A DNA stretch of 64,000 nucleotides, taken from contig NZ_CP006880.1 of assembly GCF_000816845.1 (NCBI RefSeq), positions 1,426,001-1,490,000 of the forward strand, given 5' to 3'. A program made the translations under genes and the position numbers. The notes below the pieces were generated by a model that was not told the origin of the DNA, did not search any database, and saw only the letters and a program-made list of their open reading frames with translations. Source of the stretch: Rhizobium gallicum bv. gallicum R602sp. Its GTDB lineage: Bacteria; Pseudomonadota; Alphaproteobacteria; Rhizobiales; Rhizobiaceae. This document shows, piece by piece, positions 45,826 to 62,265 of this stretch (position 1 is the first letter of the stretch; each line of letters starts with the position of its first letter).

Positions 45826-48324
45826 TCAGAGCGTGAATGGACAGGTCAAGCCGCGCATCAGTGAGCGTACCGACACCGGGTTGGCAGCTCCTGCGAAGGA
45901 CATCTGAAGATAGGCGCGCGCGCTCTTGGCACGGACATCGATCAGGAACCGTCGGCCGGCCTCGCGGGGCCGCAAGCGCGACCCATCCAAAAACCGCAAC
46001 AGGCCCCATGGACCGCGTGCGCTCTTCTTCTCGAGCCCAGGACCAGTATTGAAGGATATCTCAAAGCCTTGCGCGGGCGAGGCTCCCGGCCAGTTCAATG
46101 TGACCGACTCCCCGGAAGTGATGACCGGGGCATGAGCGCCGCCGATCGAGACAGTCGCGGCTCCTCGTTGGGCAAGAGCCTCCAGCACAATCGGGATGTC
46201 GGGCGAGGCTCCCTTTTGAAAAAGGGCCTCGCCAACGGCAACCGCCTTTTGGAGAAAGGCCGCGCTTCCGGGTGAATAGCCTGAAAGTCGCGCTTCCGGC
46301 TTCCATCGCCACGGTGTCGTCGACGTGTCCATCAAATGTGCCAGTTGCGCCCGGAAATACCTTTCTATGGTGCCGTTCGGCGCGAAGATCCGCGCGACTT
46401 CGGCCATGTCCGCATCAGGTCCATCAAAGAATGGATAATGGCCGCTTACGGCGGCCTGGCAGGCGGCCGCAACCTGAGAACCCCAAGGTGATTGTGATGA
46501 CTGTGCAGGCTGCGGTGCCGAGGTCGCCTGCTTTGGGACATGATCCGCAGCAACCTCCGGCACTTTTGGGGTAGCCGTCTGAGAGATCACGTCCTCGACG
46601 ATCTGCACAACCAGCAGCGGGGCTTGCTGCAAGGCAACGATCGAGTTGGCGCGCTCCTGTGCGTCCATGAGGGATTTCTTGCCGATCTCCGCATCCGCAT
46701 CGAGGACGGAGAGAGCCACGTTCAGCGAGACAAAGAGCTGCGAAATTTCCGACATCCGGCCCTGCTCCACGAACTGGATGGCCGGACCCAATGCCGTTGC
46801 GACTCGAAGCTGGTTGGCGTGGCTTCGGCTCCGGTCGGTCCCGCCGGACTGACGCCATGCCTCGCGGATAAGCGCCGAGAGCGGCGAGTTGCGTGCGCTC
46901 AGCCCACCGCTGATCACGACAGAAGTGGGTTGGTCTGTGAACGGCCTCACGCGAAGCTCACCCAGATACTGCGTCCACACCTCAAGCGTACGCTTTTGGA
47001 GGAGATCCATCACCGCTTCCGTGGTCGTCGTGCCGCCCGAGGGGAGCAGCGTTGCGGCTTCGGACGTTGCCCGGCGGATAGCATCGGCGGCGCCCGACCT
47101 CGCATAGTTCCATCCAGCCTCCGTATAGAGACCCGGGACTCCGCGCTCGATCGGCAGGCCCGACCGGTGGATTAAGATCGTGTCGAGACCAGGGGCCGCC
47201 TGACTGAGAGACCAGGGAGGAACAGCTGCCGTCTTTTCGGCACGTGCCAGTTCGAGCAAGGCCCGCTCACTGGCCAAGCCTTCAGCAGCGAATTGCCGCG
47301 CCTGGGCGATCGTTTCGGGATCGGGAGATGGAAGCCCCGGCTGCGGCTTGGGCATGGCAGCAACATGTTCAGCCAGCAAAGCAAGTTCGGGGAAGCTCTC
47401 GGCGCGATCGGCGACCCAGCCCCCCAGAAACCTGGGCTGCCAGTCCGATGTCCCTTTCAGTGTCGACAAAGCGCGGAGGGAATCGTAGAGCGCATTCGCC
47501 TCCCCTTCCGTGGCAAGCGCAATAGCCAGTGCCTCGGCGAGCGGCTCGGCAACCAAGGCTTCGGCCGCCTCGCCATAGCGACGGCGCGCTGCTGCAGCGG
47601 GATCGACCATTTCTATATGGTGAATGAGGCCAAGCGGTGAGCGGGCGGCATCCTGCTCAATGAGCCGGACCGCCGCCACGAAGGCATCGAGTTGAGCCGC
47701 CCGCGCGGCTGGCGTGGCGGCCTTGCCAGCTTCCACAACGCTGCGGACGTCGGGCAATTGTGCCAGCAGCCGCTCGCGAAACTGCCATTCGGCCCACCCG
47801 GCCCAGGCCACCAGCACCGCGAAGAACAGAGCCACCGGAAGAAAGACCAGGCCGCGATCTGCTCGCGTTCTGTGCTGCTCCTCCTTCGACTGTGCAGCTT
47901 GAACGGCTTCACTGCAGTGCCCGAGAAAGCGCGCCAGATCACGCCGCGCGAGCCCCCCTTTCGCCGCCTGGGCCGCCCTTTCGGCGAGACCATCGGCGCC
48001 AATCATGTGGCTGATCGGAAGAGCGGCCGCGAGCGCACGCTCCCACCGTCTGATTGGCAGCGCCGGATTGCTACGCACACGGACATCGAGCAACACCACG
48101 AGCGCGTCGCGCGCATCGAGAATCCAATCCGGCGGAACGTTCCTGCGGCGTCCTTCTTTCTCGAACTCGGCCACGAGCATGCGAGCGGTCGCGGCCAACT
48201 CCTGCGGATCAGGCCGCTTCTCGCTTTCGGCTCGCTTCGCGAGGCCAAGCAGAGGCTCGGCCAGTGCTGGAAGCACGTCCGCTCCCACTCCATCCCGACC
48301 CGGAGTCTGGAAATAGTCTCTCAC
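45826..48324 (-). CDS. TssM-like protein with TssL-like N-terminus, no ATPase domain
   Basis: 832 residues from a GTG at 48324 overlapping the upstream stop (GTGA) with GGAGGG six bases away. The C-terminal half is a TssM/IcmF periplasmic region: SGESVTLNWPGASPAQGFEI, GPWGLLRFLDGSRLRP and a CPF near the end match the IcmF C-terminal domain. TssM normally has an N-terminal cytoplasmic NTPase and three helices; here only ~155 residues precede a single membrane helix (about 159-179). These, with LAEPLLGLAKRA, MLVAEFEKEGRRRNVP and ARDALVVLLD, follow the pattern of the DotU/TssL cytoplasmic domain. A TssL-TssM hybrid is inferred. Confidence 0.8.
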   Translation of the reverse strand: MRDYFQTPGRDGVGADVLPALAEPLLGLAKRAESEKRPDPQELAATARMLVAEFEKEGRRRNVPPDWILDARDALVVLLDVRVRSNPALPIRRWERALAAALPISHMIGADGLAERAAQAAKGGLARRDLARFLGHCSEAVQAAQSKEEQHRTRADRGLVFLPVALFFAVLVAWAGWAEWQFRERLLAQLPDVRSVVEAGKAATPAARAAQLDAFVAAVRLIEQDAARSPLGLIHHIEMVDPAAAARRRYGEAAEALVAEPLAEALAIALATEGEANALYDSLRALSTLKGTSDWQPRFLGGWVADRAESFPELALLAEHVAAMPKPQPGLPSPDPETIAQARQFAAEGLASERALLELARAEKTAAVPPWSLSQAAPGLDTILIHRSGLPIERGVPGLYTEAGWNYARSGAADAIRRATSEAATLLPSGGTTTTEAVMDLLQKRTLEVWTQYLGELRVRPFTDQPTSVVISGGLSARNSPLSALIREAWRQSGGTDRSRSHANQLRVATALGPAIQFVEQGRMSEISQLFVSLNVALSVLDADAEIGKKSLMDAQERANSIVALQQAPLLVVQIVEDVISQTATPKVPEVAADHVPKQATSAPQPAQSSQSPWGSQVAAACQAAVSGHYPFFDGPDADMAEVARIFAPNGTIERYFRAQLAHLMDTSTTPWRWKPEARLSGYSPGSAAFLQKAVAVGEALFQKGASPDIPIVLEALAQRGAATVSIGGAHAPVITSGESVTLNWPGASPAQGFEISFNTGPGLEKKSARGPWGLLRFLDGSRLRPREAGRRFLIDVRAKSARAYLQMSFAGAANPVSVRSLMRGLTCPFTL

Positions 48325-49226
48325 AGTTGGCCCTCCGCGGCCCATTTACGAAGCAGCGCCTCACCCACTTCAAAATGCATGGAATCTTCGCGGGTATAGC
48401 CAGCACCCCAATACCAACCGGCATCGTTGAAGAACTCTGCGAGCACGACAAGTCCGAACTGCGTGCTGCTATCTCCCATCCTGTCGAGGTCCTTCTTGAG
48501 TGTCAGATCGACGGCCGCGCCCCAGGCATGCGACGACACCGACCTGTTCGAGCCTCGCACATAACGCGCGCACAGCGCACCAGCAGTGCCGATCGCGGCA
48601 TAGATATCCGGCTCCTCCTTTCGGAGGCGCTCCATGATATGCCCCAGCGAATCGAGGGCGGGCTTGATCATCGTTAGGCGGAAATGTCCTATTTCTCGGG
48701 TTACTAGGTTTCTCAGCAATTTCGGGTTGTTGACCGGCTGGCAGCTTGTGGAATAGGTAGTTCGCGGCTCGCCAAGGATTTGGCGGAGCACTGCCGGGGT
48801 CGGGCGTATGACGCCCTCGTTGAAGCGCTTCTTCGCCAGCTGCATGGGCTCCGTCATATTTTCGGTCTCCTCGGGCGGCGCCATACCGCCGAACTGGTCG
48901 ATCGAAAATGACTGCTGGCTCAGAGGTTCCCCGGGCGACGGGGTGATGTCGGTGCCTGGCGGGACGGGCTCGGGGCGCGCCTGCGCTCGTTCTTTCACTT
49001 TTCCCTCAAGTTCCGTCACCTTTCTTTCGACCGAGTTCAGTTCAGCTCGCAGCGACTGGATCTCTCTGTCCTGCTGAGCGAGCTGTTGAGTTAACCGATC
49101 GATCCTTCCTGCATTCGGATCACGGTCCGTGTCCCGAAGCAGGTCGCCAACAAACGCGAAAACGGCCGCCGCAAGAATGACGCTCATTCCAATGACGACA
49201 GCCGCAATCGGATTTAATGGCCTCAA
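48321..49226 (-). CDS. M15-family peptidase, TagX-like
   Basis: 301 residues. One N-terminal membrane helix (about 9-29) anchors it in the inner membrane with the rest in the periplasm. A coiled coil (about 44-80) and a Pro-rich linker follow. The C-terminal M15_4-type zinc peptidase domain shows SSHAWGAAVDL (His233, Asp240) and DSMHFE (His284). Homologous TagX of Acinetobacter cuts peptidoglycan cross-links so that the T6SS can span the wall. Its ATG overlaps the phosphatase stop and its stop overlaps the TssM-like start. Confidence 0.85.
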   Translation of the reverse strand: MRPLNPIAAVVIGMSVILAAAVFAFVGDLLRDTDRDPNAGRIDRLTQQLAQQDREIQSLRAELNSVERKVTELEGKVKERAQARPEPVPPGTDITPSPGEPLSQQSFSIDQFGGMAPPEETENMTEPMQLAKKRFNEGVIRPTPAVLRQILGEPRTTYSTSCQPVNNPKLLRNLVTREIGHFRLTMIKPALDSLGHIMERLRKEEPDIYAAIGTAGALCARYVRGSNRSVSSHAWGAAVDLTLKKDLDRMGDSSTQFGLVVLAEFFNDAGWYWGAGYTREDSMHFEVGEALLRKWAAEGQL

Positions 49227-50059
49227 GGCGCTGCATCTCCGTCAATCCGAACGACTACCACAGAGACATTGTCTGGAGCGCCCTGATCGAGAGCGGCCGC
49301 TACCAGTCGCCGGCAGGCGGCGTCTGGGCTCGGCGCGCTCAAGTGATTGATGATCTCGCGCTCGGCAAGACAATCGGTCAATCCGTCGGAGCAAAGAAGA
49401 AGAAAGTCGCCCGGCTCTAGCGCGACTTCGACGCAATCCACGTCCAGACGGTCGGCGGCGCCGATTGCCCGAGTAACAACGTGGGATTGCGGGTGCTGCC
49501 GGACACCGGCGGGGCTAAGGTGCCCATCATCGAGAAGTTCCTGCACTACCGAATGGTCGCGCGTGAGTTGCAGCAACTCACCTCCTCGCAAACGATAGGC
49601 TCGGCTATCTCCCACCCAAGCGATTGTCGTCGCTCCGCCGTCGACGAGTGCCGCGACCACTGTAGCGCCCATCTGTGGCACATTGGCCGAAGCCGCCCAA
49701 CGACGGACGGCGGAATTGGCTGACTGCAGCGCAGCAACGAGGTGAGCGCCGGAAACGGGAGTGTGCGGGATCAGGGCGAGCTGTTCGATGACCAGGTCAG
49801 CTGCGACGTCGCCGTGGCCGTAGCCGCCCATCCCGTCAGCTACTGCCCAAAGGACACCCGAGGGATCGGTGAGAATCGCGTCTTCGTTGTTTGTTCGCAC
49901 ATGCCCGGTATGACTTAGTCCCGCTCCTTGCGGCCTGCCCGGCCGGTTGGGCACGCGCGTTGAAGCATTGTCCCGAGAATCCGGGGTCATGATCGGATGA
50001 ACCCCATTAGATCGATCCGTCGCGAGAGCGGCTAGCGGATCGGTTGCAGCTAAAGTCAT
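49223..50059 (-). CDS. PP2C-family Ser/Thr phosphatase (PppA-like)
   Basis: 278 residues; the PP2C fold begins near residue 48. Conserved motifs with metal-binding Asp: NNEDAILTDP, WAVADGMGGYGHGD, GATVVAALVDGG, IAWVGDSRAY, LLCSDGLTDC and GAPDNVSVVVV. In T6SS clusters PppA reverses the threonine kinase's phosphorylation of the FHA protein. The start is uncertain: the ATG at 50059 is only 50 bases from the divergent ompA-like start and lacks a clear RBS; the ATG at 49990 is an alternative. It heads the operon with the peptidase and TssM-like genes. Confidence 0.9.
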   Translation of the reverse strand: MTLAATDPLAALATDRSNGVHPIMTPDSRDNASTRVPNRPGRPQGAGLSHTGHVRTNNEDAILTDPSGVLWAVADGMGGYGHGDVAADLVIEQLALIPHTPVSGAHLVAALQSANSAVRRWAASANVPQMGATVVAALVDGGATTIAWVGDSRAYRLRGGELLQLTRDHSVVQELLDDGHLSPAGVRQHPQSHVVTRAIGAADRLDVDCVEVALEPGDFLLLCSDGLTDCLAEREIINHLSAPSPDAACRRLVAAALDQGAPDNVSVVVVRIDGDAAP

Positions 50060-50079
50060 CCTATAGTAATTTCATAGGA
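50059..50079. promoter_or_regulatory. short inverted repeat in the phosphatase/OmpA divergent gap
   Basis: TCCTAT and ATAGGA form 6-base arms with a 9-base spacer in the gap between divergent genes. It overlaps the phosphatase ATG at 50059. A regulator site is possible, but arms of this length occur by chance. Confidence 0.3.
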
Positions 50080-50109
50080 GGCGAAACCTTTTTGCCAAAG
50101 GAGCCTAAG

Positions 50110-50856
50110 ATGAAGCGCCTGCTGACCACCAAGCTGACGGTGTTTCTCGCTCTATTCTTCGTGACCCAAACTGATTTGGGTGCGCAGGAACTGAACGATT
50201 CGGCGCTTAAAGAGCGCTTTCAGCGACAGATCGAGTTGTTCAAGGCGGCACGGCTCGGAGCCACGCGTGGCCTGGTTCTTACCAACTCCAATTCCACGCC
50301 CAAAGCCGCGGCCGTACCGGTGACAATTGCCACGCCGGAAACCGGCGCAGCCAAACCCGCTCCGGCTCCCCCTGCCCCTGCAGCCATTGCTTCCCAAGGA
50401 ACCCAAGCTGCCCCAGCTGTAGGACAGCCATCAATCCCGCAACCGACAGCGACATCACCGACGACTGCCGTATCCGCAGCAGTGACAAGCGATCCGCAGA
50501 CATACTGGAAGCTGCCGCCCGACGACCAGATCAACGTCCGCGTAAATTTCGACTTCGATTCAGCAGCCATAGCTCCGAACCAAAAGGCGATGCTGCAGAA
50601 GCTTTGCGGAGTAATGAAGGATATGGACATCAAACTCGTCCGTATCATCGGTCACACGGATGCTGTCGGAGGCGCAAGCTACAATCAGCACCTGTCAGTC
50701 CTGCGCGCGAAGGAGGTAACCCGCTTCTTCACGGATGATTGCAACATCGCTCGGGAACGGCTCGAAGCAGTTGGGGCAGGCGAGCAGTTTCTTCTCAACC
50801 AGGAAAATCCGAAGGCTGACGAGAACAGGCGCGTAGAATTCCAGGCTGTGAGCTAA
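50110..50856 (+). CDS. OmpA-domain periplasmic/outer-membrane protein
   Basis: 248 residues from the ATG at 50110, with AAAGGAGCC in front; a longer frame from 50044 lacks a signal sequence. The signal peptide (RLLTTKLTVFLALFFVTQTD) is followed by a short helix and an Ala/Pro/Thr-rich linker (about 60-130). The C-terminal OmpA/MotB peptidoglycan-binding domain reads VNFDFDSAAIAPNQKAMLQK and IIGHTDAVGGASYNQHLSVL. There is no lipobox cysteine. In T6SSs such proteins (like TagL) attach the membrane complex to the wall. It sits alone between two minus-strand T6SS operons. Confidence 0.85.
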   Translation: MKRLLTTKLTVFLALFFVTQTDLGAQELNDSALKERFQRQIELFKAARLGATRGLVLTNSNSTPKAAAVPVTIATPETGAAKPAPAPPAPAAIASQGTQAAPAVGQPSIPQPTATSPTTAVSAAVTSDPQTYWKLPPDDQINVRVNFDFDSAAIAPNQKAMLQKLCGVMKDMDIKLVRIIGHTDAVGGASYNQHLSVLRAKEVTRFFTDDCNIARERLEAVGAGEQFLLNQENPKADENRRVEFQAVS

Positions 50857-50893: not shown

Positions 50894-53611
50894 TTATTCA
50901 AACGCGTAGGTGAAGCCTTCGGCAGATGCTCCGACCGTGGCCTTGGTGAGACGTTTGCCTTCGAGTGCCCAGTTCAGAACGCCTTGGCTCAGCGTCGGCA
51001 GTAGCGTGTTTGTCAAGATCGCGTCGATCATGCGCCCCCCCGATTCAACTTCGGTGCACCGAGCCTTGATCAATTCCAGAACCCCGTTCCCGATGACCAG
51101 TTCGGCGTCATGGCTGGCGCGCAGTCGGCGCGCGATCTTGGCGAAATGATGTTGTGTGATCGCATCGATCATTGAATCTGAGAGCGGGTAATAAGGTACG
51201 ACAATCACCCGCCCGAGGAACGCTGGCGGAAACACTTTCAGCAGTGGCGGCCGCAGTGCGCTTTCGAGTTCCTCAAGCGGCGGCCGCGTCCTGCCGCCGT
51301 CTGTTCGCTTCATGATAACGTCCGAACCGACATTCGACGTCAGCAGGATAAGGGTGTTCCTAAAGTCGATCCGTCGGCCCTCGCTGTCGTCCATCATTCC
51401 CTTGTCGAAAACCTGGAAGAAGATCTCGTGCACATCCGGGTGCGCCTTCTCGACTTCATCGAGCAAAATGACGGAATAGGGGCGCCGCCGCACGGCTTCG
51501 GTCAGTACCCCTCCCTTGCCGTAGCCGACATAGCCGGGAGGGGCACCCTTGAGGGTAGAAACTGTGTGTGCCTCCTGAAATTCCGACATGTTGATCGAAA
51601 TCAGATTCTGTTCGCCTCCATAGAGAGCTTCGGCGAGCGCCAGCGCCGTTTCTGTCTTGCCGACGCCTGAAGGGCCGCACAGCAGGAAAACGCCCACAGG
51701 CTTTTCAGGTGAGCCAAGTCCCGCACGGCTGGTTTGCACGCGCCGCGCGATTGATTCCATTGCAAATTCCTGGCCGACGACGCGCTCTCCCAGAACCTCG
51801 GCGAGCTGTAGCGCTTTTTCAGTCTGGCTGGTCAGCATCCGGCCGACGGGAATACCCGTCCAGTCCTGCACGACGGAGGCCACAGCGTTCCTGTCGACGG
51901 AAAGCAGGATGAGCGGCGTCTCGCCCTGAACGCCCGCAAGTTCCGCCATCAGCACCTTGAGCCGTGCAAGATCGGCGCCCTGGTTCGGGAGTACTCCATC
52001 GCCGCTCTCCTGCTCGGGGAGATCCACGTCAGCGGCCACCGGCAATTCCTGGTCTGCTTCTCCCTCGGCCAGCACCGCATCAAGCTTAACTCCCTTTCCC
52101 CGTAGCCCCGCCCGTAGATCGAGGATTTCGGAGACCATTGACTGTTCCTTTTCCCAACGGGCCTTTGCGGAAAGCAACGCGGCTTCCGTCTCGACGAGCG
52201 AGGCTTCGACCTTCGACTGGCGCTCCGCGACCTCGATGCCGATTGCAGCTTCGCGCCCGATAATGCCCTGCTCGACCTCGAGAGACTGCTTGCGCCGCAG
52301 AAGATCTTCGACCTCAGCCGGTGTCGCGTGCTGCGATACCGCCACGCGCGCGCAGGCCGTATCGAGTAGGCTGATTGCCTTGTCCGGCAGTTGGCGTGCG
52401 GGGATATAGCGATGTGAAAGGCTGACGGCTGTCTCGATGGCTTCGTCCAAAATCTGCACCTGATGGTGCTTCTCCAGCACGCCTGCCACGCCACGCAACA
52501 TCAGGATGGCGGCTTCTTCATCAGGCTCTTCAACCTTGACCACCTGGAAGCGGCGGGTCAAAGCCGGGTCTTTCTCGATATGCTGCTTGTATTCTGCCCA
52601 TGTCGTTGCAGCGATCGTGCGCAGCTCGCCACGCGCCAATGCCGGTTTAAGAAGATTTGCCGCGTCTCCCGTTCCCGCTGCCCCGCCTGCCCCGATCAGT
52701 GTATGAGCTTCATCGATGAAGAGGATGATCGGAGTTTCAGATGCCTGGACTTCCTCGATGACTGTCTTCAGCCGCTTCTCGAACTCGCCCTTGACGCTCG
52801 CCCCTGCCTGCATCAAACCGATGTCCAGCAGGTGTAGCGCCACACCTTTCAGCGGCGGCGGCACATCTCCTTCTGCAAGGCGGAGCGCAAAACCCTCGAC
52901 CACCGCCGTCTTTCCCACTCCGGCTTCGCCGGTCAGGATCGGGTTATTCTGGCGCCGGCGCATGAGGATATCGACAATCTGCCGGATCTCTGGATCCCGG
53001 CCCAGGACCGGGTCAATTTGGCCGTCGCGTGCGCGCCGGGTGAGGTCGGTGGCGTATTTCGCCAGTGCGGAGTCGCCGCCCGCGGGGCGTTTTTTCCGCG
53101 ACGGGTCTGGAGCTTCGGCCTTGCCGGCATTCTCAAGTGATCCGGCCAGCACGTCGTCCAGCCGGGGGATCAGGGAATCCGCCTCGATCCGATCGAATTC
53201 GGCGCTGATCTTCAACAGAAGCCCGTCAAGTACCGCTACCTTTCTGCAGGCCAGCAGAACATGCACTCCGCGAACCTCGTCAGATCCGAACTGCAGGTTT
53301 GCCAGGCTCCAGGCCTCCTGGATGGCATGAAAGATGTGATCGGAAAACTCCTCGATGGAGGTAGCGCCATAGGGAAGCTTGTCTATCGCCCTCGCCATAT
53401 CGGCAGCAAGCCGGCCGAGATCCACGCCAGCATCGTGGAAGATAAGCTGAAAATCTGCGCGGTCGACCAGGGCCAGCTGTTCGATCCAGTGAACGAGTTC
53501 GACATAGGGATTGCCGCGAAGCTTGGCCGCGTCCGCCGCCGCCTTGAAAGCGCGCAAGCAAACGGGATTGAGTTTGCCGACCAGTTCCTTGCGCTTGAAG
53601 CTCTGCTGCAT
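50894..53611 (-). CDS. clpV: T6SS sheath-disassembly ATPase ClpV (TssH)
   Basis: 905 residues of the Clp/Hsp100 ClpV group. An N-terminal domain for sheath binding (about 1-150) precedes two AAA+ modules: Walker A GEAGVGKT at 228-235 with Walker B ILFIDEAH, and GPSGVGKT near residue 650 with VILLDEVEKAHPD. A helical coiled region links them. The substrate loop GAPPGYVGYGKGG is present. ClpV extracts the contracted TssB/TssC sheath so subunits can be reused. It converges on the OmpA-like gene and diverges from the kinase gene. Confidence 0.95.
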   Translation of the reverse strand: MQQSFKRKELVGKLNPVCLRAFKAAADAAKLRGNPYVELVHWIEQLALVDRADFQLIFHDAGVDLGRLAADMARAIDKLPYGATSIEEFSDHIFHAIQEAWSLANLQFGSDEVRGVHVLLACRKVAVLDGLLLKISAEFDRIEADSLIPRLDDVLAGSLENAGKAEAPDPSRKKRPAGGDSALAKYATDLTRRARDGQIDPVLGRDPEIRQIVDILMRRRQNNPILTGEAGVGKTAVVEGFALRLAEGDVPPPLKGVALHLLDIGLMQAGASVKGEFEKRLKTVIEEVQASETPIILFIDEAHTLIGAGGAAGTGDAANLLKPALARGELRTIAATTWAEYKQHIEKDPALTRRFQVVKVEEPDEEAAILMLRGVAGVLEKHHQVQILDEAIETAVSLSHRYIPARQLPDKAISLLDTACARVAVSQHATPAEVEDLLRRKQSLEVEQGIIGREAAIGIEVAERQSKVEASLVETEAALLSAKARWEKEQSMVSEILDLRAGLRGKGVKLDAVLAEGEADQELPVAADVDLPEQESGDGVLPNQGADLARLKVLMAELAGVQGETPLILLSVDRNAVASVVQDWTGIPVGRMLTSQTEKALQLAEVLGERVVGQEFAMESIARRVQTSRAGLGSPEKPVGVFLLCGPSGVGKTETALALAEALYGGEQNLISINMSEFQEAHTVSTLKGAPPGYVGYGKGGVLTEAVRRRPYSVILLDEVEKAHPDVHEIFFQVFDKGMMDDSEGRRIDFRNTLILLTSNVGSDVIMKRTDGGRTRPPLEELESALRPPLLKVFPPAFLGRVIVVPYYPLSDSMIDAITQHHFAKIARRLRASHDAELVIGNGVLELIKARCTEVESGGRMIDAILTNTLLPTLSQGVLNWALEGKRLTKATVGASAEGFTYAFE

Positions 53612-53692: not shown

Positions 53693-53733
53693 TTCTTGAC
53701 AAATATTCGACCCGCGTGTTCTTGATGAATATT
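53693..53733 (+). promoter_or_regulatory. direct repeats upstream of the T6SS kinase operon
   Basis: Two 15-base copies, TTCTTGACAAATATT (53693-53707) and TTCTTGATGAATATT (53719-53733), differ at two positions and are 26 bases apart. Each contains AATATT. They lie 37-77 bases upstream of the kinase start (53770). The first copy contains a TTGACA -35 box, but no good -10 follows at 16-18 bases. A regulator binding site for the T6SS operon is inferred. Confidence 0.45.
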
Positions 53734-53769
53734 ATGTCGCGTGGTTCTGGGTGCGCTGGGAGGCTCCAG

Positions 53770-55863
53770 ATGATTGATCCTCTGCCTGGCGACATCTTCC
53801 GCAAAGGACAGGTGCTCAACAACACCTACGAGATCGAGGGTGTCCTCGGCCGCGGTGGAACAGGTGAAGTCTATCGAGCAAGCAACCGGATCACCGGCCG
53901 CGTGGTGGCGCTTAAGGCGCTGAAGCGGGAGCTCTCGGCAAATGCCGGCTATCTGGAGCTTATGAAGCGAGAGGAGGAGATGCGCAGCATCTCCCACCAC
54001 GCGGTCGTGCGCTACACCGACTGCAGCCAGACCGGCGACGGCCACGTCTATCTGGTGATGGACTACGTTGCCGGCACGCCGCTCAGTGAGTGGCTCGAGC
54101 AGGGCGGGGCTACCGCGCGGGATCTGCTAGTGGTGGCACACAGAGTGGCCGAAGGTCTTGTCGCAACGCACGAGCGCAAGATCGTCCACCGCGACCTTTC
54201 TCCTGACAACATCATCCTTCGCGACGGCAGGCCGGAGGAAGCCGTCATTATCGATTTTGGTATCGCCAAGGACAGCAACACAGGAGCGCGCACGATTGTC
54301 GGCAACGAGTTTGCGGGCAAGTATGAATATGCCGCGCCGGAGCAGATGCATGGGCAAGCGGAGCCGCGGTCCGACCTTTATGCCTTGGGCGCATCGCTGC
54401 TCGCAACCTTTCGGGGAAGGGTTCCAGACGTCGGAAGGAGTCCGGGCGAGGTCGTCCGTCATAAGGAGCGCCGGCTTGACACCTCGGGCGTTCCAGAACC
54501 GCTCAAGACGCTGATCGACGACCTCACTCAGCCTGACCCGGCCCACCGGCCACCGAGTGCCGCCGCGGTCGTGAATGAAATCGGACGGTTGCTGCAACCT
54601 GGTCACGCCAAAGCACGGCCGGGCGGGCGCAACAAGAGGCTCATGTTGCGGCCATGGCTTCTTATTCTGCCTCTTGCGGCGCTGGCCGCTATTGGCGGAC
54701 TTTGGCTTCTCGGAGTTTTTGAAAGCTTGTCTCCGACTGCCCTGCCGATCGCGACGCCCTACAAACTCACTGCCGGGGTGGACGCGCAAGGGCGGCCCAC
54801 GCTTGCCGGTTTCGCTCCCGACGCCGACCAGCATCAGGCAATCCTAGCAAACTTCACCCGCACGGTCGGGCTTCCCCCACCTAATAACGCCCTCACACTC
54901 GCCCAGGGCGCGCCATCCCAACGGTGGTCGCAGGACGTCGATGTCTTTTTTGCGGCCGCCGTTCCGCTCGACGAGTGGAAGCTTGAAATAGCTGATCGAA
55001 CGGTCCGCCTCTCGGGCCTCGCCGCCGATAAAGCGGGACGCGAAGCTGCGGTCACACGATTTAATGCGGCAGCAAAAGCGGCCGGCTACCGGCCTGTCGC
55101 CCGTATTGCTGCCGGCCCGCGAGATCTGTCGCCGGACCAACTGAAACCCCTTATCGTGCCGCTTCAGACCTGCGGCCCACTGCGCGTTCAACAACCGGAG
55201 GGCGGTACCTTTCCCCTCGGATCAACGATCTCCATCCAAGGAGACGTCGCTTCAAGCGGCGACATTGACGCCCTCCAGCAGGCACTCGCACCCCACGTCG
55301 GAGATCGCGAGCTGCGCTTCGATACCACGGTACTCAGCGCCCAGCTGTGCGTTGTTCAAGTGCTGCTGCCGGATACGCCGCAAGGTCAGATGACGATCGT
55401 TCTTGGCTATGGCGACAGATCCGAGCCGAACATGTCCGGCATCTATTCGGTTGGCGACAATCCCGTTATCGACGTGCTCGCGCCGGCTTCGCTCGACAAG
55501 GGGTACTTGTGGGTCGCCATCGCCGACGTCACCGGCAATCTCTTCAATGTTCTTCCGAACATCAAAAGACCCGATCATGCACTCGCCGAAATCGGGACCG
55601 TGACAGATGGCATGCGCACCATTCGGGTCGCCTATCCAACGGCAGAGGGTGCCGCCGACCCCGCAAAGCTCACCTTCGCCGTCGACAACACCTTCGGCAG
55701 AACTCTGATAATTGCTATGCAGACAGACCAGCCGCTTTTCCCCCAGCTTCGACCAACAACCGAGTCCACCAAGTCCTTTGCCGAAGATTTACGTGCAGTG
55801 GTAGCGGCCGGTCATGTCTCGATGCTGTCAATGACGACCCGGTTAATCGACACGCGCAAATAA
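53770..55863 (+). CDS. T6SS-associated Ser/Thr protein kinase (PpkA-like)
   Basis: 697 residues from the ATG at 53770, with GGGAGG at good spacing; a frame from 53716 exists. The Hanks-type kinase domain has the glycine loop GRGGTGEVY, Lys49 in VVALKAL, HRDLSPDN with Asp142, IDFGIA with Asp162 and AAPEQM; it appears active. A transmembrane helix near residues 300-322 exports a periplasmic C-terminal region containing a BON-like segment (WKLEIADRTVRLSGLA) and a DUF4384-like end (YLWVAIADVTGNLFNVLPNI). PpkA kinases phosphorylate the FHA protein to trigger T6SS assembly; the FHA protein is encoded at 63287. Confidence 0.92.
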   Translation: MIDPLPGDIFRKGQVLNNTYEIEGVLGRGGTGEVYRASNRITGRVVALKALKRELSANAGYLELMKREEEMRSISHHAVVRYTDCSQTGDGHVYLVMDYVAGTPLSEWLEQGGATARDLLVVAHRVAEGLVATHERKIVHRDLSPDNIILRDGRPEEAVIIDFGIAKDSNTGARTIVGNEFAGKYEYAAPEQMHGQAEPRSDLYALGASLLATFRGRVPDVGRSPGEVVRHKERRLDTSGVPEPLKTLIDDLTQPDPAHRPPSAAAVVNEIGRLLQPGHAKARPGGRNKRLMLRPWLLILPLAALAAIGGLWLLGVFESLSPTALPIATPYKLTAGVDAQGRPTLAGFAPDADQHQAILANFTRTVGLPPPNNALTLAQGAPSQRWSQDVDVFFAAAVPLDEWKLEIADRTVRLSGLAADKAGREAAVTRFNAAAKAAGYRPVARIAAGPRDLSPDQLKPLIVPLQTCGPLRVQQPEGGTFPLGSTISIQGDVASSGDIDALQQALAPHVGDRELRFDTTVLSAQLCVVQVLLPDTPQGQMTIVLGYGDRSEPNMSGIYSVGDNPVIDVLAPASLDKGYLWVAIADVTGNLFNVLPNIKRPDHALAEIGTVTDGMRTIRVAYPTAEGAADPAKLTFAVDNTFGRTLIIAMQTDQPLFPQLRPTTESTKSFAEDLRAVVAAGHVSMLSMTTRLIDTRK

Positions 55864-55956: not shown

Positions 55957-57120
55957 TTGTTCAACTCGGCTCTCTGGTTAAGTCCACTGAACGGCGACAA
56001 CCCGTCGGGCGAAAGCTTACGGAATGACGGACGATTCCACGAGTTGGAACGCCTTGTGCAACCGCAGATCGAGATCAGCCGCGACGAACGCAATAACCCG
56101 GTCTCACGGACCGAGGTCCCGGTCGATTGGTCGATCGTCCTTCGAAAATCAGAAGAGTTGCGCCCGCACGGACGGGATCTGAGGCTCCTCGTGATCGTGA
56201 CCCGCGCCCTTGCAAATGAACAAGGTCTTGCTGGCCTCGCGGAAGGCTTGAACCTGATCACCGGAAGCTTCGACATGCATTGGGAAACGATGCATCCGGA
56301 ACTTCGTGAGGGCTTGCCTCCACGGGATGCCGCCCTGCGCCGGACTAATGCTCTTCTCCAACTCCAAAACGAGAAGGATGGGCTACTCGGCGATCTTCGG
56401 AAGATGACTTTCTTTGCGCCACGGAGCGTCGGGCCCGTCACAGGGCGCGATCTCGAGCGCGGGGCTCTCGACACCCGAACCGTTCTCAACGAGGCTGCAC
56501 CCGGACTGAGCGACGCTGAGAAGGCGTCGCTCGTAAGCGAGCACGACCAGTTACTCAATCGCGTGAGGATCGGCTGCGCGGCGTTTGCGGAACAAGCCGG
56601 GGACGAGGCGTCCGCGCTCATCGTCAGCGCAAACGCTGCCGCCACAGCGATGGAAGCCCTCGAGACATCGCTCAATCGGCGACTCGGCGGGGATGTGCGC
56701 GTGACCTTGCCAGATCTCAGTCGCTTCCTGCAGCGAGTGATCTCTACGCTTGAGCGTGTCAAGCCCAACCCCAGGCAGGAAACTGCAAACGAGGAAACGC
56801 TCGATCGTGAGAGCGCGGCTGCAAAAACGATCTCTGACGCAGCTCCGGCTTACAGCGGAGCACCGGCAGTCTTTCCGTCGCGGCTCACCTCGCGCGAGGA
56901 GGTCACAAAGTGCATCGACCTCATCATTGCCTTCTACGACCGCACTGAACCGTCGAGTCCTATTCCCCATCTGGCGCACAGGATCAAACGTATGGTGCCG
57001 ATGGATTTTCTGGAACTCATGGAGGACCTGGCGCCCTCCGGTTTGAAGGAATTCCGGCTTCTGGCCGGTGTGCCGGAAAGAAAAAAACCTGTCCCTGGGA
57101 CGAAAGGTGATCACCAATGA
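55957..57120 (+). CDS. tssA: T6SS protein TssA (ImpA N-terminal domain)
   Basis: 387 residues from a TTG at 55957, with GGGGGG seven bases upstream. The N-terminal ImpA domain is recognisable: PLNGDNPSGESLRNDGRFHE and VDWSIVLRKSEELRPHGRDL. The C-terminal region, about 250-387, is less conserved. TssA caps the growing sheath and helps assemble the baseplate. It is the first of the plus-strand secretion genes after the kinase, 93 bases on, and overlaps tssB by four bases. Confidence 0.88.
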   Translation: MFNSALWLSPLNGDNPSGESLRNDGRFHELERLVQPQIEISRDERNNPVSRTEVPVDWSIVLRKSEELRPHGRDLRLLVIVTRALANEQGLAGLAEGLNLITGSFDMHWETMHPELREGLPPRDAALRRTNALLQLQNEKDGLLGDLRKMTFFAPRSVGPVTGRDLERGALDTRTVLNEAAPGLSDAEKASLVSEHDQLLNRVRIGCAAFAEQAGDEASALIVSANAAATAMEALETSLNRRLGGDVRVTLPDLSRFLQRVISTLERVKPNPRQETANEETLDRESAAAKTISDAAPAYSGAPAVFPSRLTSREEVTKCIDLIIAFYDRTEPSSPIPHLAHRIKRMVPMDFLELMEDLAPSGLKEFRLLAGVPERKKPVPGTKGDHQ

Positions 57121-57653
57121 GCGAAACTAAGGCCAAGGTAATTGAACGAAACCGGGCGCCTCGCGTCCAGATCGCTTACGAAGTCGAAACTTACGGCAGT
57201 CCGACCACCATCGAATTGCCGTTCGTCATGGGCGTGATGGCGGATCTCGCGGGCGCCTCCCAGACGCCGGAGGCCCGCAAGTCCGTCCGGGACCGCTCCT
57301 TTGTCGAAACCGACGCAAACAGGTTCGGTCGTTTCATGGAAGCACTCAGCCCGCGCGTCAAAGCCCGCGTGAAGAACACCCTTCCCCAGCCTGCCGGCGA
57401 AGAGCGCGACGAAGAGCTTACGCTAGACCTGACCTTTACGAGCATGGCCGATTTCGCGCCGGATCGTATTGCCGAACAAGTTCCACAGCTTGCAGAACTC
57501 CTGAGAATGCGCGGCCAACTTGAGGAATTGCTCGGTTTCATGGATGGCCGCATCGACGCCGAAAAACGCATCGCGCAACTTTTGAACAACGAGCCCCTGT
57601 TGGGAAAGATCGCCGATCAGGCGCTCGAAGATAGCAGCAAGTCGGAGGTCTGA
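57117..57653 (+). CDS. tssB: T6SS sheath small subunit TssB (VipA/ImpB)
   Basis: 178 residues, normal size. It has RAPRVQIAYEVETYGSPTTI, ELPFVMGVMADLAGASQTPE and later LDLTFTSMADFAPDRIAEQV, all of which mark the contractile-sheath small subunit. Its ATG overlaps the tssA stop, and tssC follows 3 bases after its stop. TssB and TssC form the contractile tail sheath around the Hcp tube. Confidence 0.96.
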   Translation: MSETKAKVIERNRAPRVQIAYEVETYGSPTTIELPFVMGVMADLAGASQTPEARKSVRDRSFVETDANRFGRFMEALSPRVKARVKNTLPQPAGEERDEELTLDLTFTSMADFAPDRIAEQVPQLAELLRMRGQLEELLGFMDGRIDAEKRIAQLLNNEPLLGKIADQALEDSSKSEV

Positions 57654-57656
57654 GCC

Positions 57657-59165
57657 ATGGCCGAACAGGAAAGTACCGCTGCAGTTGGTGTCACGGAAGC
57701 CAAAGAAGTCGACCTTCAGGAATTCAGCGAACTTCTGGAAAAGGACTTCAAGGTCAAAAAAGATGACAGCGACAAGCTTCAAACCTTGGTCAGAAATCTG
57801 GCGCTTGCTGCGCGCGGCCGTACAGAATCGACAGTCATCTCTTCCAACGCGATCAAATCGATCAAGTCCTTGATTGCCGGCATCGACAAGCTGCTGACCG
57901 AGCAGACCAACGAAATTCTCCATGCGCCTGAAGTGCTGCAGATGGAGGGGACATGGCGCGGACTGTGGTACCTCGTGAACAATACCGAGACGGATCAAAA
58001 GTTGAAGATCCGCGTCATGAACATTTCGAAGGAGGAGTTGGCTGATACCCTTGAGGATTACGAGGGTCAGATGTGGGACCAAAGCCCCATATTCAAGAAA
58101 GTCTACACCGACGAATACTCGATGCTCGGCGGCAACCCCTTTGGCTGCCTGATCGGTGCCTACGAATTCTCAAATCACCCGAAGGATGCCGGTCTCCTCC
58201 GCAACATGTCCGGCATCTGCGCCTCGGCGCACACCCCCTTCATTGCCGCCGCCGCCCCCCGTCTGTTCCGCATGGAAAGCTGGCAGGAACTGCCTAACCC
58301 GCAAGACCTGCAACAGATCGTGTCGTCGCCGGCCTATGCCTCATGGCAGTCACTGCGCGAGAGCGAGGACGCCCGTTACATAGGGTTGACAATGCCACGG
58401 GTGCTGGCGAGGCTGCCTTATGGCGCAGAAACCGTTCCTGTGAAGGGCTTCGCGTTCGAGGAAGAGGTCCAGGGCGACCATCACCGATATGTCTGGATGA
58501 ACGCGGCCTTCCCAATGGGGGTCAACATCAACCGCAGCCACAAGCTGTTTGGCTGGGGCACGCAAATCCGCGGGGTCGAGAACGGCGGGGCAGTGATCAA
58601 TCTCCCTGTCCATAACTTCCCGACCGACGACGGGACGGTGGCGATGAAATGCCCGACCGAGGTCGCCATTGACGATCGGCGCGAGGCCGAGCTCGCCAAG
58701 CTCGGGCTGATGCCGATCCTCCATCGCAAGAACACTGATATTGCTGCCTTCATCGGCGCCCATTCGTTGCAAGACGACGAGGCGCGAGCCGGCCGTCTGG
58801 TCGACCCGGATGCTCAGGCCAACGAGAGACTGAGTGCAAATCTGCCCTACCTTTTCCCGGTTTCCCGTTTCGCCCATTACCTGAAGGCGATCGCTCGCGA
58901 TAAGATTGGCTCATTCAAGGAACGTGCCGACATGCAGATTTGGCTGACGGAGTGGATCAACCGCTACGTTCTCGCCAACCCTGCCTTCGCCGACGAAAAA
59001 GCGCGCGCAAAACGTCCCCTTGCAGCCGCCGAGGTCCAGGTTGACAGCGTCGAAGGTCGCCCCGGCTGGTACAATGCTCGGTTTTATCTGCGGCCCCACT
59101 ACCAGCTGGAAGGCATCAATGCTTCGCTCCGGCTCGTTTCGGAGCTGCCGTCTATGAAGTCTTGA
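57657..59165 (+). CDS. tssC: T6SS sheath large subunit TssC (VipB/ImpC)
   Basis: 502 residues. Conserved TssC stretches include LQMEGTWRGLWYLVNNTETD, YSMLGGNPFGCLIGAYEFSN, WQSLRESEDARYIGLTMPRV and FPVSRFAHYLKAIARDKIGS, ending with YLRPHYQLEGINASLRLVSE. Only one TssC copy is present, unlike the paired TssC40/TssC41 set of Agrobacterium tumefaciens. It forms the outer contractile sheath with TssB. Confidence 0.96.
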   Translation: MAEQESTAAVGVTEAKEVDLQEFSELLEKDFKVKKDDSDKLQTLVRNLALAARGRTESTVISSNAIKSIKSLIAGIDKLLTEQTNEILHAPEVLQMEGTWRGLWYLVNNTETDQKLKIRVMNISKEELADTLEDYEGQMWDQSPIFKKVYTDEYSMLGGNPFGCLIGAYEFSNHPKDAGLLRNMSGICASAHTPFIAAAAPRLFRMESWQELPNPQDLQQIVSSPAYASWQSLRESEDARYIGLTMPRVLARLPYGAETVPVKGFAFEEEVQGDHHRYVWMNAAFPMGVNINRSHKLFGWGTQIRGVENGGAVINLPVHNFPTDDGTVAMKCPTEVAIDDRREAELAKLGLMPILHRKNTDIAAFIGAHSLQDDEARAGRLVDPDAQANERLSANLPYLFPVSRFAHYLKAIARDKIGSFKERADMQIWLTEWINRYVLANPAFADEKARAKRPLAAAEVQVDSVEGRPGWYNARFYLRPHYQLEGINASLRLVSELPSMKS

Positions 59166-59193
59166 ACAACATTTAGCCGATGGGAGGTTATTC

Positions 59194-59643
59194 ATGAAAA
59201 TCGACGGTTTTCTCAAGGTACCTGACATCACGGGGCCGAGCGTTCGCGACGGCCACGTAGACGAAATCGAGGTGCACGGAGTGGAGTTTGAAATGCAGGC
59301 TCCTTTCGATCCGAATTCGCTATCGCGGAGAGGCCGCGTCAGCTTGGGCATGCTCAATTTCATCAAGCACTACGATAAGGCCTCGCCCTATCTGAAGAAG
59401 GCTCTGTTCGACAACAAGCTTCTGGACGAGGTCAAGTTTTCAGCGCGCAGAACGATAGAAGGCGAAACGAGCGACTACCTGGTCATCACGTTGAAGGAAG
59501 CTTCGGTGACCAACTACACCATGAAGCCGAGTGAGGAAGAGCCAGATGTGATCGAAGAGCGCGTCGGCTTCGCTTACAAGAACATCACTTTCAATTACGA
59601 CGACAATGACGAGGTCGAGATGGATGTCTATGTCGGCAAGTGA
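59194..59643 (+). CDS. hcp: T6SS tube protein Hcp (TssD)
   Basis: 149 residues. It begins MKIDGFLKVPDITGPSVRDG and carries VHGVEFEMQ, SLGMLNFIKHYDKASPYLKK and the beta-barrel end FNYDDNDEVEMDVYVGK. Hcp hexamers stack into the inner tube and carry effectors. A GGGAGG lies upstream. Its 3' end overlaps the start of tssE by 20 bases. There is no C-terminal effector extension. Confidence 0.95.
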   Translation: MKIDGFLKVPDITGPSVRDGHVDEIEVHGVEFEMQAPFDPNSLSRRGRVSLGMLNFIKHYDKASPYLKKALFDNKLLDEVKFSARRTIEGETSDYLVITLKEASVTNYTMKPSEEEPDVIEERVGFAYKNITFNYDDNDEVEMDVYVGK

Positions 59644-60388
59644 CAGCTGGCAAAAAGGATTTGGAAGGAAGACGAGACCCGGGGGACAACTGCGGGCGAC
59701 TCGCGAAGCGATCCAGCCGTCCTTGTGGGATCGCCTGGTGAACGACCTGCCGGGGCTCAACTCGGAAATCAACCAACTTCGGCAGGCGATCCAGAAAGAG
59801 ATAGACCTCGAACGTCTGAACGGGCTGGTTGCCGCAGGGGTTCACCAAATGGAGGCTGCTGCGGATATCAGCGCCGAGCAGAAGAAGAACATACACCGCC
59901 TGTTCTCTCTTGAGCGACGCCAGGCAGAACTGGAAAGTCGCGGCGTCGTTGTCTCGACCGATGTGCTGCGCGAGGCAGTGCGGCGCGACATCGAGGCGCT
60001 TTTTAATGCACAACGCTTCGAATCCACGCCACTCTTGACGGATTTAGAGGCAGATCAGGCTGGGGACAACCCTCCGTCGCTTGAGGATTTCCCGGAAGTT
60101 CGCCGCAGCGTGATCAATTATGGGGTTCCCCCCTTCTCCGGCCGTTCCTCCCGTGACTTCGACCGCGATGAACTGTCGAAGGAAATCCGAAGCGTGCTCG
60201 CCGCGTTTGAACCTCGGCTGAAGGAAAGCGCGACGAAAGTTACCGTCAGCCTCGGCGACAGGGCGACCGGCCTCAGGATCGACATCGACGCACTGCTGCT
60301 TACCTCGCCGGCGCCCGAACGGCTGCTCCTGCGCACGATACTCAACCTCGACGACGGTTCGGCGCGGACTGAACTTAAGGACACCTGA
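59624..60388 (+). CDS. tssE: T6SS baseplate protein TssE (gp25-like), with long helical insertion
   Basis: 254 residues from the ATG at 59624, nine bases after GAGG; other in-frame starts exist at 59606 and 59630. TssE proteins are usually ~130-180 residues. PSLWDRLVND is the N-terminal box, and RRDIEALFN, SVINYGVPPF, LAAFEPRLKE and LTSPAPERLLLRTILNL follow in family order. Between DRL and RRDIEALFN there are ~85 mainly helical, charged residues (KEIDLERLNGLVAAGVHQME and similar) that other TssEs lack. The insertion could bind another baseplate part. The tssF start is 2 bases after its stop. Confidence 0.88.
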   Translation: MSMSASDSWQKGFGRKTRPGGQLRATREAIQPSLWDRLVNDLPGLNSEINQLRQAIQKEIDLERLNGLVAAGVHQMEAAADISAEQKKNIHRLFSLERRQAELESRGVVVSTDVLREAVRRDIEALFNAQRFESTPLLTDLEADQAGDNPPSLEDFPEVRRSVINYGVPPFSGRSSRDFDRDELSKEIRSVLAAFEPRLKESATKVTVSLGDRATGLRIDIDALLLTSPAPERLLLRTILNLDDGSARTELKDT

Positions 60389-60390
60389 CC

Positions 60391-62265
60391 ATGGACCGGG
60401 TCTTCCTGGAGTATTACGAGGAAGAACTAACCCACATCCGCGCGCTCGCCGCCGAGTTTGCAGATATGCATCCCTCGATCGCACGCAACCTTTCCCTTGA
60501 TACGGCTCCGTGTCCCGACCCCTTCGTCGAACGCCTACTGGATGGCGTGGCTTATCTGGCCGCGCGCACCCGACAGAAGGTGGATGCAGAAAGCTCCCGT
60601 TTCGCACGAAGCGTGCTCGAAAATTTCTATCCGGATCTCGTTTCGCCGACGCCCGCAACCGCCATGGCTTTGCTGAAGCCGGGCCAGCAGGTTCAAACGA
60701 TGCTCGCAGGACACCTTGTGAAGCGCGGGACCCGGCTGGTTTCAAGCGTCCGCCCAGGCCTTTCCACCCGGTGCATCTATACCACGGCCCAGGACGTGAT
60801 GCTCTGGCCGCTCGCGATTACCTCGGCCACCTACATACAGGATAGAAGCGCACTCGCCGCAGCGGGGATTGCTCCGATTGACGGCGTAACCGGTTCGGCG
60901 GCATTGAGCATCACCTTCAATCGAACCGGCAAAGGCAAGCTCAGCGACTTGTCGCTCGACCGCCTGGATCTTTATTTTGGTAGCAAGAGCAAGGCGTCGC
61001 TGCTCTTCGATACGCTCTTTGGCGCTTGCGCCGCGACCGGCGCCCGCCCCGAAGGACGCGATAATGCCCTGAGCGCACTTCCGGAGCCGGAGATGATCGG
61101 GATCTCCGACGAGGAAGCACTTATGCCGCGCACACGCGAAACATTCGAAGGCTACAGGCTTTTGCGGGAATACTTCATCGCGCCGGAAAGATTTCACTAT
61201 GTGCGCGTCACAGGGCTGCAGCCGGTCGTTCGGCGCTGCGGGGCTGGGCTGGAACTGCTCTTTCTGTTGCGGCGTCCCATCCCCGAGCTGGCGAATATCG
61301 CAGCGAAAGATTTCGAACTCTTCGCAACGCCAATCATCAATCTGTTCGAGCGCGGCTGCAATGTCATCGAACTCGATGCACGGCGGACCCGGCAAGTGCT
61401 TCACGCCGATCGCACCCGCCCACGGGATTTCGAGATCTATCGCGCAATCCGCGTCGAAGATGCCGATGCCGAAGGCCCCGACGCCGAGATGCCGGCTCTC
61501 TTCAGCCTGGGCCAGAACCGTGGAAACGGCTGGGTCTATTTTACCGAACGCCGCCCGCGGCGCCCGAGTGAAGACGAGCTTCGCCAGGGGCAAACGCGGA
61601 CCTCCTATACAGGTGACGATGTCTTCATCACGCTTTCGCGCCCGGCTCAGTCCAAAGCCGCCCGGCCACCGAAGCGGATCGAGGTGACGGCCCTGTGCAC
61701 CAATCGCGATCTACCGATATTGGACGATACGCCGTCCCTCACGCTCGAGAGCGGCGATCCCGTCGAGACCATCCAACTCCTTGGCGCGCTGCGGCCGCCG
61801 TGGCCCTCGATTCCAGCGACGCTCCCGGCTGAAGCAGTGGAAGGCTCCAGAGCCGATGAACTCGCCTGGCGGCTCATCGCGCAACTCTCGCTGAATTTCC
61901 TCAGCCTGGCTGAGGAGGGCCGCGGGGTTGATCCGCTTCACGCTCTACTTGAGCTTTACGCGAACCGCGGGGATCCAAGTCTCAGCCGGCACGTGCGCGC
62001 CGTCGCCCGCGTCGAGGCTCGACCCTTGATCGAGCGCTTGGCAATCGCCGGGCCAATGTGTTTTGCGCGCGGCACCGAGGTTACGCTTCATATCGACCAA
62101 TCCGTGCTTGCCGGGCACAGCACGTTGTTGCTCTCGGCGCTGCTGGCAAGGCTTTTTGCTCGCTATGCGGCAATCAACGCTTTCGTGCGAACCCGCGCGC
62201 GGATCATACAAAAGCAGGAGGATGTGCTATGGCCCATAGCGCCGGGCAATCGCTTCCTGATCTGA
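60391..62265 (+). CDS. tssF: T6SS baseplate protein TssF
   Basis: 624 residues, full-length. The start MDRVFLEYYEEELTHIRALA and DPFVERLLDGVAYLAARTRQ are diagnostic, as is the C-terminal FARGTEVTLHIDQSVLAGHS with the LLSALLARLFARYAAINAFV end. TssF and TssG form the baseplate wedge with TssE and TssK. Its last 37 bases overlap the tssG start. Confidence 0.95.
   Translation: MDRVFLEYYEEELTHIRALAAEFADMHPSIARNLSLDTAPCPDPFVERLLDGVAYLAARTRQKVDAESSRFARSVLENFYPDLVSPTPATAMALLKPGQQVQTMLAGHLVKRGTRLVSSVRPGLSTRCIYTTAQDVMLWPLAITSATYIQDRSALAAAGIAPIDGVTGSAALSITFNRTGKGKLSDLSLDRLDLYFGSKSKASLLFDTLFGACAATGARPEGRDNALSALPEPEMIGISDEEALMPRTRETFEGYRLLREYFIAPERFHYVRVTGLQPVVRRCGAGLELLFLLRRPIPELANIAAKDFELFATPIINLFERGCNVIELDARRTRQVLHADRTRPRDFEIYRAIRVEDADAEGPDAEMPALFSLGQNRGNGWVYFTERRPRRPSEDELRQGQTRTSYTGDDVFITLSRPAQSKAARPPKRIEVTALCTNRDLPILDDTPSLTLESGDPVETIQLLGALRPPWPSIPATLPAEAVEGSRADELAWRLIAQLSLNFLSLAEEGRGVDPLHALLELYANRGDPSLSRHVRAVARVEARPLIERLAIAGPMCFARGTEVTLHIDQSVLAGHSTLLLSALLARLFARYAAINAFVRTRARIIQKQEDVLWPIAPGNRFLI

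Follow-up and report, generated by a model that had tools for sequence, protein, structure and literature searches.

Within the 64,000-nucleotide stretch of Rhizobium gallicum bv. gallicum R602sp analysed here (contig NZ_CP006880.1, positions 1,426,001 to 1,490,000; hereafter the window, whose own coordinates are used throughout), a type VI secretion system (T6SS) cluster contains a gene at 45826..48324 whose product joins a TssL/DotU-like cytoplasmic head to a TssM/IcmF-type periplasmic arm. An earlier interpretation made from the letters alone, below called the sequence-only reading, had proposed such a hybrid with correct coordinates and no strand; the gene lies on the minus strand. It starts with a GTG at 48324 and encodes 832 amino acids, an alternative ATG at 48345 giving 839, and residue numbers below follow the 839-residue frame. 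The GTG is the better start, because GGAGGG stands 6 nt upstream, because the codon overlaps the stop of the preceding M15 metallopeptidase gene as GTGA, and because in L012, the single case in which an in-frame TGA was located, that TGA precedes the equivalent of the GTG start (the hybrid match contained one in-frame TGA in 5 of the 15 hybrid-bearing genomes of the genus).

Architecture of the TssL-TssM hybrid

Three Pfam matches on the minus strand, all above the Pfam cut-off, make up the arm: the IcmF-related domain of the TssM periplasmic part (PF06761; 46849..47598, residues 250-499, 1.4e-32), the TssM helical domain IcmF_helical (PF21070; 46294..46506, residues 614-684, 9.6e-7) and the C-terminal domain IcmF_C (PF06744; 45895..46110, residues 746-817, 9.4e-10). 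The NTPase domain IcmF-related_N (PF14331), present in the cognate TssM of the same cluster, gave no Pfam match in the hybrid at E<=1. The NCBIfam TssM profile TIGR03348 aligned over positions 413-1167 of 1168 with 194.2 bits, below its equivalog cut-off of 388.15, and this match takes in everything from approximately the last membrane helix onward and none of the NTPase. In structural comparisons, the IcmF_C region of the predicted model resembled C-terminal structures of TssM from enteroaggregative Escherichia coli (EAEC; 4y7m/4y7o, TMt 0.76-0.77), the full model matched 6ixh, 4y7m and 6hs7 among TssM entries, and a PDB sequence search returned the TssM structure 4y7l at E 1.4e-10. A single membrane helix was placed at 47785..47859 (minus strand, residues ~163-187) from the one hydrophobic stretch, recognized at about residues 165-187 by reading the sequence rather than by a membrane predictor, from a continuous helix (131-195) passing through it in the predicted model, and from the start of the TIGR03348 match at profile position 413; it is likely the counterpart of TssM's last membrane helix. 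These results bear out what had been noticed from the letters, namely TssM/IcmF periplasmic motifs in the C-terminal half, the absence of the usual N-terminal NTPase, and one helix instead of several.

Ahead of the helix, residues ~27-155 (47881..48267, minus strand) form a TssL/DotU-like cytoplasmic domain, as indicated by Pfam, hhalign and fold matches. The Pfam DotU match (PF09850) covers residues 27-103 at 4.8e-6 and 26.8 bits, 0.2 under the curated cut-off of 27; the protein scored 28.1 in a genome-wide search, and three Rhodobacterales relatives scored 28.9 (above the cut-off), 16.8 and 14.6 (both below). At E<=1, all 30 members of our family alignment A1 matched DotU (best 3.8e-8), this alignment comprising the window protein and 29 of the 33 proteins found, with P0017 and P0018 (fragments) and P0033 and P0034 (ordinary TssM) omitted. 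Against 44 TssL sequences, hhalign matched the N-terminus with a probability of 96.5% and E 7.9e-10, as compared with E 0.19 or worse for 20 column-shuffled controls; an initial comparison had used just 9 TssL sequences and gave a weak match (probability 39%, P 5.2e-5). The head also retains a Trp that is invariant in TssL (W101) and a near-invariant Asp (D87).

When a model of the N-terminus was compared with known structures, the top five Foldseek chains were all TssL (6y4r, 4v3i; probability 0.99-1.00 but weak E-values, 0.07-0.19), as were the top four VIA-align entries (6y4r 13.8, 4v3i 13.6, 3u66 13.0, 7thw 12.1; next 9.6). With the full-length model, TssL first appeared in Foldseek at rank 17 (E 0.75, probability 0.99-1.00), and the PDB sequence search reached TssL 6y4r at E 0.035 only. 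Since helical models may score ~13-14 in VIA-align without a clear relative, the TssL assignment needs the sequence profile as a second line; the profile agrees, and the lowest TssL entry exceeds the best unrelated chain by 2.5 Z units, ruling out a chance helical match. A TssM linker as the source of residues 1-155 was likewise rejected, hhalign against 33 TssM N-termini giving 0.3% and an alignment confined to the membrane-helix end. Comparison of the N-terminal fold with TssL structures had been named beforehand as the test of the proposed joining of TssL-like residues 1-155 to a TssM arm, and a normal TssM linker as the competing explanation; with TssL heading both structural lists, the proposal is supported.

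Measured against TssM/IcmF (TIGR03348; EAEC TssM 6ixh, 6hs7, 4y7m), the hybrid has in common the last membrane helix and the whole periplasmic arm, to the C-terminal CP-x-x-L end, but it lacks the first two membrane helices and the NTPase domain, scores half of the cut-off (194 of 388 bits) and is 28% identical to the cognate TssM in the best-matching C-terminal stretch. Measured against TssL/DotU (PF09850; 6y4r, 4v3i, 3u66), it has the fold of most of the cytoplasmic domain, the Trp, the Asp and, in some relatives, a TssL-like N-terminal Thr motif; it lacks LGFxGxYR and the ~40 residues that follow, and is joined to a TssM arm, whereas the four TssLs scanned carry an OmpA domain. Since the hybrid falls short of TssM in NTPase and score and of TssL in domain completeness, all of them defining features, we assign it to neither and class it as a new, chimeric variant among T6SS membrane-complex parts. 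Database entries already show this architecture, with individual proteins called VasK, DotU or ImcF-related.

Gene neighbourhood and distribution

The M15 metallopeptidase gene (PF13539, 1.2e-10; 48321..49226, minus strand) encodes a protein with an N-terminal hydrophobic segment, seen by eye, and the pattern SxHxxGxAxD...MHFE, which we take to be the M15 signature with M15-type active-site residues. It is overlapped in turn by the gene for PppA, a PP2C-type phosphatase (49223..50059, minus strand), beyond which lies a divergent gene for an OmpA-domain protein (50044..50856, plus strand), whose true start is probably downstream of the TTG at 50044. This order of divergent OmpA, PppA, M15 peptidase and hybrid is the same in 24 of 24 loci (17 from genomes and 7 from plasmids, some of the same species), the small OmpA-domain protein being kept in all of them though the cognate TssL already carries an OmpA domain.

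The cluster continues with ClpV/TssH (50894..53611, minus strand), a PpkA-like Ser/Thr kinase (53716..55863, plus strand), TssA (55957..57120, plus strand) and, at 57117..64000 on the plus strand, TssB, TssC, Hcp, TssE, TssF, TssG and the start of an FHA protein, named via annotated Rhizobium phaseoli orthologues. TssJ, TssK, TssL-OmpA, TssM and TagF follow past the window end, where the cognate tssL (with OmpA domain) and tssM begin 2.4 and 3.7 kb on, at the equivalent of 66372-71223, after tssJ and tssK and ahead of tagF. The sequence-only reading had suggested looking to the right of the window for separate tssL and tssM genes and had left the choice between a simplified and an extra membrane complex; as both genes are found in the same cluster, an extra component is supported, not a substitute for TssL or TssM, and a simplified system is ruled out. 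In this T6SS (L024:13750-16840), tagF is followed by DUF2169, 3-oxoacyl-ACP-synthase-like and DUF4150 genes, as in related T6SS clusters; with names borrowed from the annotated gene order of a related locus, this is likely an effector or adaptor block.

In R602sp, the window T6SS is one of two, ~0.22 Mb apart, each with a complete tssL and tssM. The second (L025; G000:C4:1713899-1717303) is different, with tssL, tssM, a TagF-PppA-like fusion and a small kinase (by eye). A search with the TssJ of the window T6SS found nothing in it at E<1e-3, and its fha and tssK are not separated by a gap; judged by these genes, it fits T6SS group 5, described as tssJ-less (PMC5813230).

Among 148 genomes sampled from the genus, the hybrid was found in 15 and TssM in 66, and in each of the 15 the contig with the hybrid also encodes a full-length TssM, at a distance of 19.4-19.5 kb. 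Beyond the genus, the hybrid is found in Sinorhizobium/Ensifer and on Paracoccus, Rhodobacter, Sulfitobacter and Pseudosulfitobacter plasmids; annotated tssJ, tssK, icmH/dotU and tssM stand beside it in all five Rhodobacterales loci read (six plasmid records listed). Across 385 genomes sampled from the class, it was detected only in R602sp, with at most 2 candidates scored per genome, which is not proof of absence.

Sister clusters and descent

In 12 of 151 genomes sampled from the family Rhizobiaceae, R602sp among them, a TssM shares 68% identity or more with the cognate TssM (next 36% or less). The other 11 all carry a second TssM class, here TssM2, and none carries the hybrid, while R602sp has the hybrid and no TssM2. 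TssM2 lies on the same contig as the cognate-class TssM in 10 of the 11, 10.6-16.7 kb apart, and in G086 on another contig, where TssM2 is cut. We read the clusters of five of these 11 genomes (G073, G104, G147, G015, G143) and of three of the eight genomes with TssM2 alone. All five of the former have a core tssA-tssM set, with one tssJ and one tssK, and vgrG, joined by TssL2-TssM2, PppA2 and FHA2 (farther downstream in G104), with PpkA2 in four of the five (G015: ahead of clpV). In the 40-58 kb around the five TssL2-TssM2 clusters, no second tssK or other second baseplate or sheath gene (tssK/B/C/E/F/G), no hybrid and no M15 gene was found by phmmer at E<1e-5. In the three genomes read that have TssM2 but no cognate class, TssL2-TssM2 is preceded by its own TssK.

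Like the hybrid, the TssL2-TssM2-PppA module of the five clusters is extra TssL and TssM equipment accompanied by PppA in a cluster of the same core; unlike it, the module consists of two separate proteins with NTPase and OmpA domains and has no M15 gene found beside it. In G104, the one checked, TssL2 (DotU and OmpA) and TssM2 (with NTPase domain) are complete. TssL2-TssM2-PppA2 modules with FHA2 and no baseplate or sheath genes were seen beside complete T6SS clusters of other Rhizobiaceae at L108:13500-18503, L111:13847-18927, L148, L150 and L152, making up a T6SS with two anchor sets.

In a tree of 66 TssM and 20 hybrids, from which some duplicate loci were skipped and others retained (e.g. 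L052 and L107), the hybrids formed one clade (ultrafast bootstrap 100) on a stem of 1.7 substitutions per site, and this clade grouped with the cognate TssM class (bootstrap 100). A smaller tree (34 TssM, 22 hybrids) again recovered hybrid monophyly, with support 0.94. The long stem rules out a recent duplicate of the cognate TssM. Compared with seven of its 11 aligned relatives, the hybrid gene bears the mark of purifying selection, with ratios of nonsynonymous to synonymous substitution rates (dN/dS) of 0.06-0.21 in the DotU half and 0.10-0.15 in the periplasmic part; two of the seven ratios are rough, since dS exceeds 1 in those pairs. This selection, together with conservation, rules out a truncated TssM or pseudogene.

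A proposed second arm in the membrane complex

In the E. coli anchor, TssJ, TssM and TssL occur at 3:2:2 with five-fold symmetry, the TssL cytoplasmic domain meets TssK, the TssM C-terminus stimulates the wall-opening enzyme MltE (EAEC/E. coli), and PpkA and PppA control T6SS assembly (PMC10433429). In Acinetobacter, the T6SS cannot do without TagX, a peptidase of pfam13539 (PMC5061870). Against this background, we favour, with some reserve, the reading that the hybrid is a conserved second membrane-complex subunit of this T6SS, that is, a second type of arm in the same TssJ-TssL-TssM machine. Speaking for it, on the evidence of sequences and predicted models, are its domain composition, single origin, purifying selection, constant linkage to PppA, M15 and OmpA genes, co-presence with complete TssJ/K/L/M, and alternation with TssL2-TssM2, from which we infer its incorporation in the same machine as the canonical TssJ-TssL-TssM. 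The TssL-type head would lie in the cytoplasm, one helix would cross the inner membrane, and a complete TssM-type arm would extend through the periplasm, the TssM NTPase being gone. The head could then give TssL, TssK or the Fha protein additional points of contact that involve no ATPase step, while the arm would join the TssM/TssJ ring and might position or stimulate the co-encoded M15 endopeptidase, opening peptidoglycan much as the TssM C-terminus does with MltE in E. coli. Such a second arm would bring both the M15 enzyme and a phosphorylation switch to the anchor.

The presence of PppA in the same gene string suggests that the hybrid arm belongs to a threonine-phosphorylation switch. TssL Thr14 is a PpkA target in Agrobacterium tumefaciens (PMC3953482), and a TssL-like N-terminal motif, P[KR]T[VL]xR, is found in 13 of the 14 more distant database hybrids P0019-P0032 (11 by regular expression, 2 by eye).

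Several observations weigh against a second arm of this kind. Neither the Rhizobiaceae hybrids nor P0031 nor the Rhodobacterales hybrids that were read have the Thr motif, and the phosphorylation link may thus not extend to the window protein. The head has lost TssL's LGFxGxYR and the ~40 residues behind it, and with them possibly some TssL contacts; the motif is not retained in 18 aligned hybrids (in an alignment ending at residues 165-170), and ~11 residues separate its site from the hydrophobic stretch, as against 49 in the cognate TssL. The distribution is patchy (15/148 genus genomes), and the frame is split in three records, L010/L063 (a Rhizobium sullae draft), CP140839 (R. beringeri) and CP092437 (Rhizobium sp. 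K102). Outside the family, G281 and G485, whose best cognate-class TssM identities are 42% and 35%, each carry one TssL/TssM set along with PppA and PpkA, and the stretches read (56 and 40 kb) contain no hybrid and no second set; a second set or hybrid is therefore a feature of this T6SS lineage, not of all. As TssM parent, the cognate class is favoured by bootstrap, and the best tree does not support an arm derived from TssM2, yet in an approximately unbiased test both TssM2 (p 0.067) and the TssM class of the second T6SS in R602sp (p 0.225) escape rejection, with values that are rough in that constrained trees were searched in fast mode and the tree constrained to the cognate class scored worse than the unconstrained tree showing that grouping. 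The TssM2 class itself has bootstrap 44 in the tree of 66 TssM and 20 hybrids.

As for the split frames, which may reflect either an error or a strain-level loss, other R. sullae and R. beringeri strains match the hybrid in one piece.

Alternatively, the hybrid could act as a brake on assembly. As an unproductive mimic of TssL-TssM, it would bind either of the two and prevent or hold up formation of the complex for as long as PppA/PpkA signalling does not remove it. The missing TssM NTPase and LGFxGxYR would suit such a role, as would the shared gene string with PppA, and the two TssM length variants required in Citrobacter rodentium (PMC4256274) offer a precedent for the ratio of TssM forms mattering. 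Purifying selection over the entire periplasmic arm, however, goes beyond what a decoy needs, and the presence in the hybrid's place of TssL2-TssM2, complete with NTPase domain in G104, argues for an active part; we regard a brake as unlikely. Equally doubtful is a scaffold for opening the cell wall only, in which the hybrid would anchor and activate the M15 peptidase at the assembly site but outside the ring. It would account for the adjacency of the two genes in 24 of 24 loci, overlapping here, and for the lack of an M15 match (phmmer E<1e-5) in the five TssL2-TssM2 clusters read, and it has a parallel in the activation of MltE by the TssM C-terminus in EAEC (PMC10433429); a TssL head would nevertheless be superfluous for a purely periplasmic job, and TssL2-TssM2 stands in the hybrid's place without an M15 gene.

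It is very improbable that the hybrid alone forms the membrane complex of some T6SS particles, apart from TssJLM: one chain does combine a baseplate-facing TssL fold with a TssM arm, but canonical TssM is always present where checked (15 of 15 genus genomes), as are TssL and TssM in the five Rhodobacterales loci read, and there is no second tssK beside the hybrid. A decayed, functionless relic of a duplicated tssL-tssM pair, whose domain order a simple in-frame deletion across tandem tssL-tssM would yield and to which the three split frames could point, is scarcely credible given dN/dS of 0.06-0.21 over both halves and a single-origin family that reaches down to 39% identity with the same neighbours in 24 of 24 loci.

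If the hybrid is indeed a second arm, one more speculative extension, which we hold only tentatively, is a mixed ring in which canonical TssL and TssM are combined with fused TssLM, or with TssL2 and TssM2 in sister clusters. The second set might then alter ring make-up and perhaps symmetry, its arm carrying the phosphorylation switch and, when fused, the wall-opening enzyme. T6SS anchors would in that case not need to be homogeneous, and the mismatch between the five-fold anchor and the baseplate, which is six-fold, could be studied in a natural exception. TssL and TssM are usually separate partners, and a natural fusion shows that halves of both can be retained without the TssM NTPase; its alternation with TssL2-TssM2 points to a T6SS lineage using two kinds of membrane arm. 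Two questions thereby become testable, whether the membrane complex can be hetero-oligomeric and how a dedicated peptidoglycan hydrolase is recruited to it.

The nearest described rearrangement is TagP of the Pseudomonas putida K1-T6SS, compared by description only, likewise a rearranged extra TssM-related protein in a T6SS cluster (PMC10433429). TagP is a TssM derivative in which a peptidoglycan-binding domain replaces the periplasmic C-terminal domain, whereas the hybrid is its mirror image, the periplasmic part being kept and the cytoplasmic part exchanged; Pfam found neither a TssM N-terminal part nor a peptidoglycan-binding domain in the hybrid. The C. rodentium TssM1 variants also place two TssM forms in one machine, but there a single gene yields both through transcriptional slippage, and the short form is without the C-terminus, whereas the hybrid is a separate chimeric gene without the N-terminal part (PMC4256274). 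No description of a TssL-TssM hybrid or a TssL2-TssM2 module was found among the papers listed in the literature search, which covered few subscription journals and was partly represented by excerpts. Two further TssM relatives, at L133:457-3807 and L134:427-3732 (1116 and 1101 amino acids), have the periplasmic part; in L134, the one of the two scanned, Pfam did not detect the usual N-terminal NTPase domain, and the cytoplasmic part of L134 is therefore divergent or different.
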